DNA of 64,000 nucleotides from Dillenia suffruticosa (taxonomy: Eukaryota > Streptophyta > Magnoliopsida > Dilleniales > Dilleniaceae), in contig JAVTVX010000031.1 in assembly GCA_033439265.1 (NCBI GenBank), positions 1,039,501 to 1,103,500 of the forward strand, written 5' to 3'. Below are positions 18,173-35,975 of the stretch, one piece after another. Position 1 is the first letter of the stretch. Every line of letters begins with the position of its first letter. The translations under genes and the position numbers were made by a program. The notes under the pieces are model-generated. The model was not told the origin of the DNA. It did not search any database and saw only the letters and a program-made list of their open reading frames with translations.

Positions 18173-18321
18173 CCTCGCTGTCAAAATTCACATGTTGCCC
18201 CCCAATATGTCAAAACCCGTGGAAAAAATGAGGGGGAGAGAGAGAGAGTGAGAGAGAGATTTATTTTATTCATTTTGTTGAATATCATACGACTAACAAA
18301 TAAGAAAGACAAATAAAAGAA

Positions 18322-18628
18322 GTGTTAATTATTTGTTTAATCCTTAAATTTTATTTCGAATTCACAAATTCATTTCTAAATTTTAAAATGCAACGGATAA
18401 AGACCTATACTTCAAAAATCATTATTTGTTAGTCCCTCTGTTAGTAACGGTGTCAATCTGTCTGTTAACTACTGAGCTGGTCGAACGATGGAGATGATCT
18501 AGATGCCGCGTGTTTGGGTTTTGCTAGCGTGTCTAATGACACATCGGTAGTCAACCGTGCTTATAATGCCACGTAAGATAATTTGCTAACGTGGCATGAC
18601 ACGTCAGCTGGGTTGCTTACGTTTCGTT
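18322..18628 (+). repeat. MULE left terminal inverted repeat
   Basis: Pairs with the reverse complement of 23634-23938. Shared landmarks in order are TATACTT.AAAAATC.TTATTTGTT, GTCCCTCTGTTAGT.ACGG, TCGAACGAT.GAGATGATCT, GTGTTTGGGTTTT and GTCAGCTGGG. The TIR sits between the divergently transcribed NAL1 leader and the GRF gene. Confidence 0.93.
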
Positions 18629-18920
18629 GCCATGTTATTTTATTTATAGCGCCATTTTTCCCTCCATAGCGTAGGTTACAAAGAGTTTAGTTGGTTTATA
18701 ATAAAAAAAATGAAAAAGTGTTAAAGAGGGCGAACGCAAGTCAAAGGATTGGAGGGTTAGGGTTTTTGAGCAAGATTCGGAGGGTTGAATGTTCGAGGAG
18801 AAAACGAATTTAGGATTTTAGTTCTTGCAATATCCTTACGAAGAAGAGTTAGGTTTTGGGCACTGTTTTCAATCATATATTTTTCACCAAAGCAATAGCC
18901 ATACAATGTCATCATGAAGT

Positions 18921-19482
18921 ATGGTAAAAGGTACCTTGAAGTGCAGATGCAATCTCGATGCTGTTCTGGTGACTTCATGGTCAGAACGAAATTCATCACG
19001 AAGGTTTTATGGTTGCCCTAATTTTTGGGTATGTGAAAACTTATTTTATTGAAACATAATTTTTGGAATATATTTGCCATAAATTTTATTGTGATGAATG
19101 TTAATGTCTCTTGCAGGAAGGTAACGTTTGCAATTTTTTTGAATGGTATGATCCATCATTCTGCCCTCGAGCAATAGAAGTCATTCATGGGCTGAAAAAA
19201 AAAGTTGATGAGCTGAACATTGTACGGAACTCTGTAATACTTGTTTGGAGTTTGAGAATGCAGAATGCACGAAACACCATCGACAGGTTGATGGAAGAAA
19301 ACAATCGTTTGTTGCGCTGTGTTGAAGAGCTTAAGGAAATGAATTTGTCAATGAATGAGGATATTTGGAAGTTGCAGGAGATAGAGGAGAAAGTTAAATA
19401 CAGTTGGAAAATTTTTATACGCATAGGTGGAATATTGTCAATGGAAGTGCTATTTTTTGGTATTTTGTATAAAGCTAGATAG
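18921..19482 (+). CDS. GRF-zinc-finger, coiled-coil, single-membrane-segment protein (join 18921..19028, 19117..19482)
   Basis: A 157-residue protein of the plant GRF zinc-finger family (resembling the uncharacterised Arabidopsis At1g43920/At4g04775 type). Exon 1 encodes the start, with CRC at residues 8-10 and RRFYGC ending at Cys32. Exon 2 continues EGNVCNFFEWYD with Cys41. Together these make the CxC...C...C zinc finger with the RxF and FFEW signatures. Residues about 54-130 are Leu/Glu/Lys-rich heptad-like sequence, probably a coiled coil. Residues about 132-153 (FIRIGGILSMEVLFFGIL) form a hydrophobic C-terminal anchor. The junction is TGG|GTATGTG ... TTGCAG|GAAGG in phase 0. The ATG at 18921 is preceded in frame by a stop, so the start is fixed. 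The gene lies wholly inside the MULE, convergent with the transposase. The frame is open, unlike the transposase. Function is unknown; single-stranded nucleic-acid binding is known for GRF fingers in other proteins. Confidence 0.8.
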
Positions 19483-19975
19483 GTAATGAGTTTGGTTGCT
19501 GTAAGCATTAATGTAATATAGGAGGTTTTTTTATTTTTATTATTATTATTTTTTTGAATCTTATAACACTAATATTATTTAATGGCGGTGGTTTATGAAG
19601 AATGTAATATTATCTTTGGTCAGAAATGCATGAACAACGTGACAGCATTCTGAGTTTGCATTCTGAGTTAAGAAGAAAATATCAGCATTCTGAGTCAAGA
19701 AGAAAAAATCACATTCTGAGTTTGACAACACCATCGAGAATCTAATCACAATCTGGAGTTTAGAAGAAAAGAACATGACAACATTACAATCTAAGTTAAA
19801 AAAAAAACTGCACTTCATTTGCAATTCTGAGTTATACAATATCATAAAGTTCCTAAACAGAGTTCTGAGCATTCAAACATCAGAAATTGTTAAAAATATC
19901 AAAAGTAGAATCTGATTATAATTTTTACAATACAAGTCTTGTTAAAACATGAGAAATTATTCAAAACATTAAAGT

Positions 19976-20261
19976 TTACAACATTGCCTTCTGAACTATT
20001 GGGAGTAAGGTTGCTCGGATGCTTATGAAGCAGGTTGGTTTCTGAAGTGCTGGGAAGAAGGTTCTGTGACTGTTGTGATGGAGCTTGGCTTCTGAAGGGT
20101 TGAGAAAAAGGTGCAGTTGCCTAAGACCCTCGTGATGGAGGTTGCCTTCTAAAGTGGTGGCAAGAAGGTGTTGGTGCCTGTGACCTTTGTGATGGAGGTT
20201 GGCTTCTAAACTGTTGGGAAGATGGTGGCTGTAACCCTTGTGATGTACCATATTGCTGGCC
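19976..20261 (-). repeat. Imperfect tandem repeats in the MULE transposase C-terminus
   Basis: About five diverged copies of a roughly 55-60 bp unit (plus-strand landmark GATGGAGGTTGGCTTCTAAA) encode FRSQPPSQ-type Gln/Pro/Ser repeats in the transposase frame. Such low-complexity tails after the zinc knuckle are usual for this transposase type. The reading frame closes partway through, near 20130. Confidence 0.75.
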
Positions 20262-22867
20262 CTGCATGGAATGTTACTGGATTAGTTGTTCATGCATTTA
20301 GAACTACAAGCATAGTATGGATTCATGAAACTAATCATTTACCTGGTTGGCATTTGAGCCGCATGACTTCATGTTGTGTCTTGCTTGCTTGCAAATGGTA
20401 CACTTGATGATGGTTCCAACTCTAGAAAGTGTATGAGGATTTCTAGGTGGGATATCAGTGGGCTCTTTTCGCCTTTTTTTTATGGCCTTCCAGCTTTTCT
20501 TTTATAGTTAGGAGACAATAAGGTTGAGAGTTGACATTTGTCTCATACATGTGGTCCATTGCAAGGATAAATAATAGATGCGTAGCACTCCGCATAACAG
20601 GCTGGAATATAACAATTAGATACATATTTCTTTGGTTTTTCTCTACAAAGAAACATGCAACTAATTGCATGACCACAACGAATGCCACATAAATCCCATG
20701 CCCTACAGCTACAGGTCCTGTTATCCAAATCAACAATGAATTTATTAAAAAATAATGTCACCTCATATATCCCACCACCTGCTAAGGTTGGAAACCAATG
20801 TCTACTTAGTTTCTTCTGTTTTTCAAGTTTCCTTTGAATAGCAAAACAAATATCACCATGGAAAGATGATATTTTGGTCATATTTTCAGAAAATTTTGAC
20901 ATCTGCCCATACCTAATTGCCTCTAACAAGCTGATAATAGGCACGTCTCTTGCCTCCAAAATCTTAGCATTGAATGATTCACAAATATTGTTAATGAATA
21001 AATCACACTTACTGTAATCAAAAATGCAGGCCATGTCCATGTATGAGTTGGCTTCTCCATGAGCCAAGTATAGGCAGCAGCATTTGAGGTCTGAATCTCT
21101 CTCATCACTCAAATGAACTCAGCCTCATATATGACCCTGGCAGTAGCATAGAATATGTTCTTCAACTCCTAGTCTTTGAACTTCTTGTGAAGATTATTAT
21201 ATAGATGTTGGACACAGATTCTATGTTCCGAATATAGAGACAGGTTTGAAATAGCATTAAATAGTCCCTGTAGAGAAACATGTTCACACAGTTGAAGGAT
21301 GTGGAGACAGTTGAAATAATATAGAAAGTGAATGAATAATTGTCCAATTTTATACCTTTTGTTAGTCAGACATGAAAGTCCATTTCCTATCATCTCCAAT
21401 GTCACCAAGTAAGAGTTGCAGGAATCACATCCAAGAATCTGTCTCCTCCAACTCCACAATTGCAAAAGCTAGTAGAAAAATTCTATCATTTGGGTCTTTT
21501 CCAACCGTAACCAGGAACTAACCTCCATAACTAGATTTCAGAAAACAACCATCCAATCCAATAAATGGCCTACAAGCTGTCAAAAAACCCTTCTTACAAG
21601 CCTCCAGACAAATGTACAATCTTTTAAAAATTGGAGTTAGAGGATATTGGATGGATAAGGGATGCTCATCACCACAAGATAGATAACTCTCTATTTTACA
21701 AGTACTACCATTGTTTGTTCTCAAAAGCTCTTCAAAATATAGTTTTAACAAAAAGGATTGCTCTTTAACCTGCCCTTGGGCTAGTTCCTTAGCCACAACT
21801 TTTGCCCTCCATGCTTTCATTCTCCCACAATTGACCATAAATTTCTTTTTAGTCTTTTATTGAAAACTACACACTTTTAAGTTAGAATCACTTTACACAC
21901 TCTTGACCCATTTCCCTGCAAGCCACTTAGTTGATGCATGCTTATTATTCCAACTTCTAACACAGCTATGTTTAGGCTTACATGTCACCACCACTGTTGT
22001 CTTCTCATGATCTCGAACTTTTTTTGCATGCACCAACCAATCACAACCCTCAATACATCTAACTCTCACTCTATTTTTGTCATTTTTAACAAATCTTAAA
22101 TTTGTTCCACTGTACACAACATAATCTATCCTTAGTTCTTTGAAAATTTTCAGACTTTCATATATCTGGCCCTGCTTGAATTCAATAAATTTAGGATTAT
22201 AATCTCTCATGAACTCTTCATATCTACGTTTTTCTCCACCCTCATCCCCTTCATCATCACTTCCAGTCTTTCTCATTATGTATTTTAAGTCTGAATCCTC
22301 ATCTGCCTCCTCCCAATCAGAGAAATGAACCCATCTTAAGTTTTCCTCTTCTTGTGGTTATACAAGGCCCTCTTTATCACTTGCATTGGGATCTTCACCT
22401 TCTATGGGATTATCACTGCATATTGAATCATCCCCTTCTTCCCTTGAGATCTCATCATTACTTTGTTCAGAATCACTACTCACTAAATTCTCAAAACTAA
22501 AAACCTCATTTTCCCCTTTATCTTCATTACTTTCATTAAATAAATCAGTATCATTTTCTAATACACAAGTATCATCAACACCATGTTCTATATAAAAATG
22601 AACTTCCTCATCTTTTTTCCTTTCATCAAAATAACATAACAATGCAGAATCAGTTAAGATTGGGCTGAAACCATCTCCAAGCAAATGTATCTATGACCTT
22701 ACATAATTTTTATAACCTAACTCTCCTATCATGTGTTCTAATTCAAATATTGACATTCTATCCATATCACAATTATCAATATATGTTATATCACCACCTT
22801 CATAGCTAATTGTTCCTATCAATTTACCACCATGATGTACTGCAACTGTGAATTTGGTTGAATCCAT
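20140..22867 (-). pseudogene. MuDR-type MULE transposase, decayed (exons about 22867..21356, 21267..20344, 20261..about 20140)
   Basis: Domain order is that of plant MuDR transposases. A PB1-like N-terminal domain starts at 22867 (MDSTKFTVAVHHGGKLIG). An acidic linker follows, then the MuDR DNA-binding domain (22276-21893, CIEGCDWLVHAKKVRDHEKT). The MULE catalytic region starts near 21838 (GRMKAWRAK, GLDGCFLKSSYGG). Then come NNICESFNAKIL and the SWIM zinc finger CSCRAWDLCGIRCGHA at about 20717-20670. A basic tail with a CX2CX4HX4C zinc knuckle (CTICKQARHNMKSC) and Gln/Pro/Ser repeats close the protein. Two introns are recognisable: 21355-21268 (GTATAA...CTACAG) and 20343-20262 (GTAAAT...ATGCAG). 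About ten in-frame stops are visible, for example after NYVRS, GLV, KWVKSV, SSYGG, SWM, MSD and FKD. There are shifts near 21030 and in the A-run near 20480. It cannot make a working transposase. Confidence 0.92.
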
Positions 22868-23633
22868 ATATGAGAAACGAAAAATTATGAAAAATGCTAA
22901 GACACTATTCACACAGTATTTAAATAATTTCAACAATCTCAGCATATGCAGTATAATACAATTTATTAACAGAATATTAACAAAATATAATACAGAGTTT
23001 ATAATAATATAAACAATCTCAATATAAACAATATAAACAAAAATTATAAATTAAATAATATTTTATTAACAATAATAAAGAAACCTTAATTTTTAAAACT
23101 TAAAACCCTAATATTTAATGAACCATAATAATACAGACTTAATTACATTTTATTAATAAGTTTAAAGAAATAACTTTTTCAAAATCTTAGTTTTTCCGTT
23201 TTTCAGAAACCCTAATTTTTTCGAAACCCTAATTTTAAACACTTCAAATTATAGTAATAAAAATAGTATGGTTAGATTTCATACCTTATATGGACCCCAC
23301 CTTCAGGAAATAACCACAATCACGACCGCAAACCAAGGATCGGGACCACAAGCCTCAATTTTTAAAAGGACAGTAAAACAAAAGCAAAAACCAAATATGG
23401 ACTCCTTCTCGATATTCAAAATCAACTATTGTTTCTTTCGATTACAGTAAAAAATTCCTAATCTTCACTACTCCGACTATTATTTCCTTTGAATACAATA
23501 AAAAATCCATAATCTTCACTAACCCTATTCGACGAGTTACCTTCGCTTTCTCTCCGCCTATAAATGTTCTATCGTTCTCTCTTCCTTTTGTTTTTACTTT
23601 ATTAAGACTTAACCTCTCGATTCTTACCCCTTC

Positions 23634-23938
23634 GAAAAAGTAAACAGCCCAGCTGACGAGTCATGCCACATAAACAAATTATCTGGCGTAGTATCATAAG
23701 TATAGTTGACTACCGACGTGTCATGTGACACGCCAGTAAAACCCAAACACACAGTATCCAGATCATCTCTATCGTTCGATCAGCTCAACAGTTAACGGAG
23801 AAGTTGACGCCGTCACTAACAGAGGGACAAACAAATAACGATTTTTTAAGTATAGGTTCTCATCCGTAACATTTTGAAGTTCATAGATAAATTTGTGAAT
23901 TTAAAATAAAATTCAAGAACTAAACAAGTTATTAACAC
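23634..23938 (-). repeat. MULE right terminal inverted repeat
   Basis: Inverted partner of 18322-18628. It starts after AAAAGTAAACAGCCCAGCTGACG and ends ATTAACAC. It would carry the transposase promoter, and the transposase coding start lies about 770 bp inside it. Bases 22870-23630 between the two are AT-rich, without another gene. Confidence 0.93.
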
Positions 23939-23947
23939 ATAAAATAA

Positions 23948-25436
<1,489 letters not shown>

Positions 25437-34284: not shown

Positions 34285-35975
34285 TGATCTTAAGCCAGGA
34301 GATTCTCTAAAAAAATATTAAGAAGAGCGACCATGTCCCTAAAATCACCCCTATCCTCTTTACAAAAGAGGAGAATATCATCTGCAAACTGATGATTGGA
34401 CATCACAACTAGAGAAAATATAAGCGTGAATCCCTCTTAATCATCTTACTTGAGGGGTTTACGACGAGTAAAAAGAAAAGGAGAACGAAGGCGATCTTGT
34501 CCTAACCCCTGGGACACTGATACCCAAGTTTTTGGCTCTCCATTAATATAAACAGAGAAGTAAGCCAAAACTCAAAACATCCTCTAATCCATCTTCTCCG
34601 GCAAGTCCCAAAACCCTGATTCTCCAACACATTATTTAAAATACTTCAACTAACTCTCTAATTAGCTTTTGCAAATTTTAACCTCAAAACAACGCCCATA
34701 TCATCCTTTTTAACAATATCAGCAATCTTGTTGGCCATAAGTACAACATCTATAATATATCAATAAAAGCACTTCAAGCACCACACAATCTATTTAACTA
34801 AAACTTTAGTTAAAAGATAAAGAGTGGTAATCAAAATGATGGGTTTGAAATCCTTCAACTTCAGATAGCGAGATTTCTTAAGTATAAGGGTAGTAAAAGT
34901 AAAAACTCATGTACTTTCCTACCACCGCATTGATATAAAACTCATCAAATAATAAAATCCTCACAAATTACATACTATCAAAATCGAAACTGTCCCTATC
35001 TCATCCCTCTCAAAAGGCCTCTCTAACCATGCGGTTCTCAAACTCTTGATAGGAAACCTATCAATCCCATCAATAATAGGGAGAGCCATATCCTCCATGG
35101 TGTGCAAGTCCTTGTAAAAGGTCATAATAGTTTCCTCAATGGAGGCAATATTGGTGATCACATTACCCTCATCATCCTCTATTTCTCTTATGGATCTCTT
35201 TTGCCTTGTACCATTGGCTACTTCATGAAAAAACCTGGTATTAATATCCCTCTCACAGACCCACTCTGGGTGAGATTATCGGTACAAGCTGACTTCCTCG
35301 TTAAAAATGAGCTCCTCACTATCTTAGATTCGCCTTATGACTAGAAAGATCCCCATTCAAACCTCACTCTACCTCTAACATATCTATCTATGGAACTCTT
35401 TTGCCTCGTACTATTGGCTACTTGATGAAAAAACCTGGTATTTTTAATATCCCTCTCTCGGACCCACTTTGGGTGAGATTTCCGCGCAAGCTAACTTCCT
35501 CCTTCAAGGTGAGCCCCTCACATTAGAATTCTCCCTATGACTAGAAAGATCCCTATTCAAACCTCCCTCTTCTTTTTGATATCCATCTCTCGGACCCACA
35601 TATCTATCTTTTTGATATCCCTAAGAATATAACTTTTTCAATATCACCAAAGACCTCCTCATTCCAATTCTTAAGTGCTTGCTTTAACTTATTTAGCTTT
35701 CTCATTAATTTGAACTCCTCCCACCCTACTACACCAATATCTCTCCATGATGACTTGATTTTCCGAAGGTCTTTATGAGATAACCACATGTTCAATCTAA
35801 AGGGTGTGGGATCTGAGTTGATTTGATTAGACTTCAACAAAACAGGAAAAATGGTCTGATGTGGTTCTAGTGACTGTTTCGCATCTTAAATTAGAGAAAT
35901 GGGATTCCAAACATTAGAACAAAGAAAATCATCAATACGAGAAGCACCCCAATGCTCCCTGGTAACTGATCAAAG
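34285..35975 (-). mobile_element. L1-type LINE fragment (endonuclease end plus reverse transcriptase)
   Basis: Read on the minus strand from right to left: an endonuclease C-terminus (SRIDDFLCSN near 35960); PTPFRLNMWLSHKDL and GWEEFKLMRKL (35840-35604); the linker TNIASIEETIMTFYKDLH (35161-34961); reverse transcriptase motifs equivalent to LKDFKPI near 34850; then a LRSPFLF-like segment near 34480 and QFADDILLFCKED near 34390. Order and content are those of plant L1 elements, but the frame is interrupted many times and both ends are missing. Its left edge abuts the LTR fossil. Confidence 0.85.
35172..35571. repeat. 200 bp tandem duplication inside the L1 fragment
   Basis: Two units repeat at exactly 200 bp spacing: TTGCCT(T/C)GTAC.ATTGGCTAC at 35201 and 35401, and CTAGAAAGATCCC.ATTCAA at 35341 and 35541. 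A partial third copy of the TCTCGGACCCAC segment follows near 35590. The duplication arose after or during decay, since it breaks the linker coding region. Confidence 0.85.

Follow-up and report, generated by a model that had tools for sequence, protein, structure and literature searches.

A 64,000-nt stretch of the Dillenia suffruticosa genome, hereafter the window (contig JAVTVX010000031.1, G000:C31:1039501-1103500, from an assembly of 596 Mb in 37 contigs), harbours a Mutator-like element (MULE) in which a dead transposase gene is faced by a convergent two-exon gene encoding a small protein with a GRF zinc ribbon. The finding reported here is a clade-wide GRF accessory gene. With a probability of about 0.85, we propose that the window element is a decayed member of a MULE clade in which most of the recovered elements carry a convergent GRF gene beside one terminal inverted repeat (TIR), and in which this gene was under purifying selection while the subfamilies diverged. 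The accessory role itself we infer from the ratio of nonsynonymous to synonymous substitution rates (dN/dS), the window copy being an ordinary dead element. Its features, in window positions, are as follows.

18313..18321: left target-site duplication (TSD), ATAAAAGAA, 8/9 identical to the right copy
18322..23938: the MULE from TIR to TIR, with a dead transposase gene and a convergent two-exon GRF gene
18322..18624, + strand: left TIR, 303 nt, whose near-full-length matches elsewhere are 80-88% identical
18906..18917, + strand: start place of the family (18906-18908), followed in the window copy by a stop at the fourth codon (18915-18917)
18921..19028, + strand: GRF gene exon 1 from the inner ATG, with the start of the zinc ribbon (Cys 8, 10 and 32)
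19029..19116, + strand: intron inside the GRF domain, phase 0, 88 nt, GT-AG
19117..19482, + strand: GRF gene exon 2, with the end of the zinc ribbon (Cys 41), a long helix or coil and a hydrophobic C-terminal tail
19411..19467, + strand: hydrophobic tail, residues 135-153, from hydropathy
20237..22865, - strand: decayed MuDR-type transposase gene (approximate limits, from domain matches and frame reading)
20543..21118, - strand: transposase block T2, SWIM zinc finger PF04434 (Pfam, 3.8e-6)
21518..21856, - strand: transposase block T1, query of the genome-wide search
21893..22357, - strand: transposase block T0, MuDR DNA-binding domain PF03108 (Pfam, 1.2e-7)
23636..23938, - strand: right TIR, pairing with the left TIR
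23939..23947: right TSD, ATAAAATAA, 8/9 identical to the left copy ATAAAAGAA

A MULE with a convergent GRF gene

The element combines long TIRs (303 nt each, 82% identical without gaps), a TSD of about 9 bp whose copies agree at 8/9 positions at the TIR edges, and a MuDR-type transposase, as expected of MULEs, in which identity of the two TIRs at insertion is not required. In the transposase both PF03108 and PF04434 exceed their Pfam cut-offs, and 20 stops interrupt the frame read from 22865 to 20237, about 12 of them outside the region where the frame is lost or an intron lies. No DDE-domain model matched any of the five transposase pieces scanned, positions 21119-21517 lying outside that scan. 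The transposase sits beside the GRF gene and has not been replaced by host fragments, as it would be in a Pack-MULE. Taken together, the TIRs, the TSD, the Pfam matches and the interrupted frame uphold the initial annotation, made from the letters of the window alone, which had proposed a MULE with a GRF gene convergent to a dead transposase. A 57-bp tandem unit (2.7 copies, 20075-20227) lies near the 3' end of the transposase gene.

Read from the inner ATG at 18921, the GRF gene begins about 280 nt inside the left TIR and encodes a protein of 157 amino acids with no internal stop. Pfam family GRF (PF06839) matches residues 8-48 at 1e-7, with 32.4 bits against a curated cut-off of 25.9; at E-values up to 1 the scan of the whole protein returned three further, sub-threshold matches, and none to PMD, DUF1985 or DUF287. 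Its cysteines 8, 10, 32 and 41 are presumably the zinc ligands of the GRF ribbon. The closest solved domains are the GRF fingers of NEIL3 (6e-5) and, weakly, ZCCHC4 (0.023), and a scan of viral contigs with the GRF protein found no relative. The intron, described as clean in the initial annotation, has GT-AG borders, a length of 88 nt and phase 0. The coil predicted in the initial annotation is seen as one long helix (residues 15-120 of the 121 encoded by exon 2) in the best single-sequence model, with a predicted local distance difference test score (pLDDT) of 87, but the four other models reach a pLDDT of only 39-69. The proposed C-terminal membrane segment does correspond to a hydrophobic tail, with a best 19-residue Kyte-Doolittle mean of 2.0 starting at residue 135; its insertion into a membrane is a prediction from hydropathy.

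The GRF gene in sister copies and diverged subfamilies

A genome search with the left TIR, in which 40 of 165 candidates were scored, gave at least 43 matches, of which 26 form 13 inverted pairs 4.8-6.9 kb apart, the pair of the window included. We examined 20 regions of the window's family and found the GRF gene in 19 of them, 18 directly and one in an element on contig C2 whose GRF-side end lies in region L028, with T1 adjoining on the opposite strand. In the sisters the gene is located near one TIR, on its inner side at a distance of a few hundred bases (some 3.3 kb in L050), and is directed towards the transposase. In 12 of the 20 regions, chosen for having both ends and flanks available (L039, whose right flank is cut, was left out), the best TSD among 81 offsets matches at 9/9 positions in seven, at 8/9 in four and at 6/9 in one; at random places a match of at least 8/9 occurs at a rate of 1.2%. 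The copies are therefore mostly separate insertions. On contig C16, five very similar copies follow one another about 0.45 Mb apart (10.30, 10.74, 11.20, 11.65 and 12.13 Mb; L043, L045, L044, L029 and a fifth), as if a large block had been tandemly duplicated several times; judging from spacing and likeness only, these five and two copies on C10 are probably segmental duplicates.

Beyond this family, the GRF protein has at least 191 matches genome-wide, 150 out of 279 candidates having been scored, with 32-98% identity among the 150 listed, many of which start or end near residue 36-37, the place of the intron. Transposase block T1 has at least 151 matches (150 of 211 scored). The best 150 matches of each search collapse into 102 GRF loci and 135 T1 loci, and T1 is found within 12 kb of 82 of the 102 listed GRF loci, always in convergent orientation (82/82). 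The two lie 1.9-2.3 kb apart in 64 of the 82 pairs, one pair overlapping, where random placement expects 0.55. The association extends to distant relatives, since among 27 hand-picked GRF loci with an exon-2 match of at most 43% identity (some exon-1 matches are higher) T1 stands beside 21, again convergent in every case (21/21). At locus L058, one of the 27, where the coil is 38% and T1 58% identical to the window, the GRF exons occur in the same order and the element is two-ended, with its own TIRs, about 200 nt long, whose arms (161 and 42 nt) show 80% and 83% complementarity; its best TSD, 8/9 and at most 2 nt from the arm edges, is weak evidence because it was chosen among 750 offsets. 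Seven distant T1 matches (36-42%) lie within uninterrupted frames of 546-746 amino acids (C4:3688839, C18:3793270, C18:3784528, C1:22053265, C4:786009, C18:725441 and C11:13382345); these are candidates for other intact MULE transposases or for domesticated ones.

A frame-tolerant alignment of 41 GRF genes, divided by eye, comprises three subfamilies, A (the window's), B and C, each with zinc ribbon, coil and tail. Cysteine is the commonest residue at positions 8, 10, 32 and 41 in all three (residue and hydropathy counts were taken over 16 A, 13 B and 7 C genes, L076 excluded). The predicted splice junction is exact at the GT in 30, at the AG in 32 and at both in 25 of the 41 genes. Position, orientation and intron are common to many copies and to diverged subfamilies, which supports, as far as the lineage goes, the accessory gene of a MULE lineage that the initial annotation envisaged, its function being inferred. 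The check proposed there, whether further MULEs have a GRF gene placed and oriented in the same way, was passed within this one genome.

Selection, origin and alternative explanations

Selection was estimated by pairwise Nei-Gojobori dN/dS, as the ratio of mean values, on groups from which L036, L044, L045, L050 and L062 were excluded and in which parts of L037 and L076 were masked. For the whole GRF gene dN/dS is 0.40 (A-B), 0.39 (A-C) and 0.38 (B-C) between subfamilies, and 0.55 (A), 0.51 (B) and 0.55 (C) within them. By domain, the zinc ribbon, coil and tail give 0.18, 0.39 and 1.10 between A and C, and 0.34, 0.35 and 0.75 between A and B. These values indicate that the GRF gene evolved under purifying selection while the subfamilies diverged; the present copies, the window's included, are decaying. 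The tail ratios, which run from 0.75 up to 1.23 (B-C), imply that only its hydrophobic character was kept: its 15-residue hydropathy maxima range from 1.6 to 2.5 in A and B and from 2.5 to 3.5 in C, and the rest of the protein does not exceed 1.5. The maxima of subfamily C average 3.1, against 0.95 +/- 0.79 under random substitution, a level reached in 1 of 2000 trials of a simple null that started from the window sequence and applied 45 random substitutions (the window-L058 differences in 78 bases). For the transposase blocks, compared among the window, 16 sister copies and L058, dN/dS is 0.72 (the window against the 16 copies), 0.69 (members of A among themselves) and 0.26 (A against L058). 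It looks as though both genes were under selection while the families separated and were relaxed afterwards, the GRF gene being held less strictly.

The Pfam GRF model has 7 matches in the genome, a low number such as an intron dividing the domain would lead one to expect. Among them are two host-like genes that combine a CCHC knuckle with GRF fingers, L051 (C19:13002511; also L056) and L053 (C5:16029673), and a decayed gene of the same type, L054; no GRF was found on the strand read at L052, L055 and L057. Both L051 and L053 have a phase-0 intron in the GRF domain a few residues past the third cysteine (splice sites read from the DNA), and that of L051 falls at the same residue as the intron of the MULE gene. 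No TIR-like repeats were seen within 1.5 kb on either side of L051 and L053. The intron place shared with L051 suggests that a host GRF gene was captured long ago as DNA, intron included, before the subfamilies split. The capture of a host gene, one of the origins proposed in the initial annotation, is thus probably correct, but it would have happened long ago and not in the window copy.

That annotation had also considered that the window gene might have been kept after the transposase died, which would make it a domesticated gene of use to the host. Among the 41 modelled genes the window copy is indeed the only one whose modelled frame is free of stops and frameshifts. However, this openness depends on where reading begins. 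At the position of 18906, five codons before the ATG at 18921, an ATG occurs in 18 of the 19 other family-A copies, and the codon at 18921 is ACG in 13 and ATG in 6 of these 19. The stop at 18915-18917 is private to the window (0/19), so the 157-residue frame is open only from the inner ATG, the family frame being closed at its fourth codon. Openness is moreover to be expected by chance. The other A copies (n = 15) carry 3.07 lesions on average, and with this mean a Poisson model predicts 0.75 open copies in a set of 16, with a probability of 53% that one or more are open. Against its 15 A sisters the window gene has a dN/dS of 0.94 (below 1 in 7 of the 15 pairs), and at sites where at least 80% of the sisters agree its private changes are 10 nonsynonymous and none synonymous. 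The dN/dS check proposed in the initial annotation accordingly gives two answers, purifying selection between subfamilies (about 0.4) and neutrality for the window copy, and the retention of this copy for a host function is very improbable.

A different possibility is that a host GRF gene was captured once and has since been copied along as a functionless passenger, a Pack-MULE-like cargo in an autonomous element. Several observations weigh against our reading, and part of them would suit such a passenger. None of the 41 modelled GRF genes is intact: stops or frameshifts break the modelled frame of all 40 others, and in the window copy the family frame ends at its fourth codon. The dN/dS of 0.55 within the window's family and the tail values of 1.1-1.2 in comparisons with C would fit a passenger, as would the comparison of A with L058, in which the transposase is under the tighter constraint (0.26, vs 0.43 for the GRF gene). 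The estimates themselves are to be read with the dS between A and C of about 1.3, near saturation, with pairs that share history and with an alignment fitted to one query. As to distribution, region L049 (C26) has a transposase and only one TIR in 9.9 kb and no GRF gene, T1 is missing from the surrounding 12 kb at 20 of the 102 listed GRF loci, and among the first 82 T1 matches 15 lack a GRF match; truncation and unlisted or unscored matches could account for some of these unpaired loci. A passenger, however, would not be expected to show between-subfamily ratios of 0.38-0.40 over the gene as a whole and, between A and C, of 0.18 in the zinc ribbon, a tail hydropathy kept beyond random substitution, or an identical orientation in 82 of 82 pairs, and the transposase decays likewise within A (0.69). 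We therefore consider this explanation unlikely and retain the reading of a clade whose GRF gene was selected during its diversification. A chance capture by a single copy is ruled out by the presence of the gene in 19 of 20 family regions and in 82 convergent pairs genome-wide, and nothing was found in its favour.

Elsewhere in the 64-kb window there are no tRNA genes; a 200-bp tandem duplication (1.9 copies, 84% matches) occupies 35189-35570 and a perfect CT microsatellite of 45.5 units occupies 25047-25137.

Possible role and comparison with known systems

Given its modelled long helix and a hydrophobic segment that stops a few residues short of the C-terminus, the GRF protein is most simply read as a tail-anchored, oligomeric, DNA-binding helper. 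The protein would oligomerise through the modelled coil, its zinc ribbon might bind single-stranded or forked DNA, as the GRF fingers of NEIL3 are described as doing (PMC9266487), and its tail would hold it on a membrane. Encoded by the element and probably descended from a host gene with a GRF domain that was captured at the DNA level along with its intron, it may assist excision or reinsertion, and would thus be like MURB in role and not in sequence. We advance this helper mechanism as a tentative possibility. The fuller picture, a plant MULE clade defined by a captured GRF gene whose product, a tail-anchored coiled-coil protein binding DNA ends, would hold transposition intermediates at the nuclear envelope or endoplasmic reticulum, is speculative, and we regard it as doubtful.

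The GRF protein might instead be an anti-silencing factor comparable to VANC, which VANDAL elements encode and which binds DNA and strips methylation from its own family (PMC5735166). The fast change of the GRF protein beyond its zinc ribbon would be in keeping with an arms race. It has, however, neither of the VANC domains (DUF1985, DUF287) among its Pfam matches, a conserved hydrophobic tail would be unexpected in a chromatin factor, and the binding of single-stranded or forked DNA reported for NEIL3 (PMC9266487) points away from such a role, so that we hold this alternative to be rather doubtful too.

Plant MULEs have few accessory genes, most of them, though not VANC, without an established function, and the GRF gene adds another. 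It combines a domain of known biochemistry with a constant layout in a large clade, and a helper function is therefore testable. If the helper gene does define the clade, many plant genes annotated as small GRF zinc-finger proteins would be transposon genes; candidates of this kind in plant mapping studies may likewise be transposon genes, and could be recognised by a convergent transposase about 2 kb away.

Second genes, often antisense to the transposase, are described in several plant MULE groups, such as mudrB, vanB/vanC and the PMD genes (PMC6446971); ORFR is an extra gene of Abermu (PMC9168764), and ULP1 genes are reported in Kaonashi MULEs (PMC13317346). The term 'GRF' is absent from the main texts of PMC6446971, PMC4334395, PMC9168764, PMC13317346 and PMC5735166, and among the listed matches of a literature search, which did not extend to Repbase and most subscription journals, none dealt with GRF genes in Mutator elements or MULEs. 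The terms 'GRF zinc finger' and 'transposase' co-occur in a paper on wheat quantitative trait loci (PMC7729826), and 'At4g04775' and 'transposon' in PMC6059424. The two-gene layout is already known; the GRF accessory gene looks new.

The MuDR element of maize has two convergent genes, and we know of no GRF-type domain in MURB, the product of the second. The window element resembles MuDR in its MuDR DNA-binding domain and SWIM zinc finger, its long TIRs, its 9-bp TSD and its second convergent gene, mudrB being described as needed for new insertions in maize (PMC9168764). It differs in that the second gene encodes a GRF zinc ribbon, a coil and a hydrophobic tail. Abermu is likewise related to MuDR, has a 9-bp TSD and carries an extra frame opposite the transposase; this ORFR is described as evolving faster than the transposase, with no known domain, varying places and no similarity between distant plants (PMC9168764). 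Unlike ORFR, the GRF gene constitutes one homologous family with a constant layout in three subfamilies of one genome.

VANDAL/Hiun, with VANB and VANC, and Kaonashi, with ULP1, are MULE lineages that also carry accessory genes (PMC5735166, PMC13317346). The function of VANC has been demonstrated, and the protein is described with DUF1985/DUF287 and without GRF (PMC5735166); VANDALs are classed as non-TIR MULEs (PMC13317346), with TIRs of 46-174 bp in Table 1 of PMC6446971, whereas those of the window element measure 303 bp. In PMD MULEs the second gene is often antisense, as reported for the groups MUDR and MUDRAVI2, and it encodes PMD where the element described here encodes GRF (PMC6446971). 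Outside transposons, the same zinc-ribbon domain occurs in NEIL3, APE2 and ZCCHC4 (for APE2, PMC9266487), which are repair or RNA-modifying enzymes, whereas in the MULE protein the GRF domain alone precedes a coil and a hydrophobic tail.

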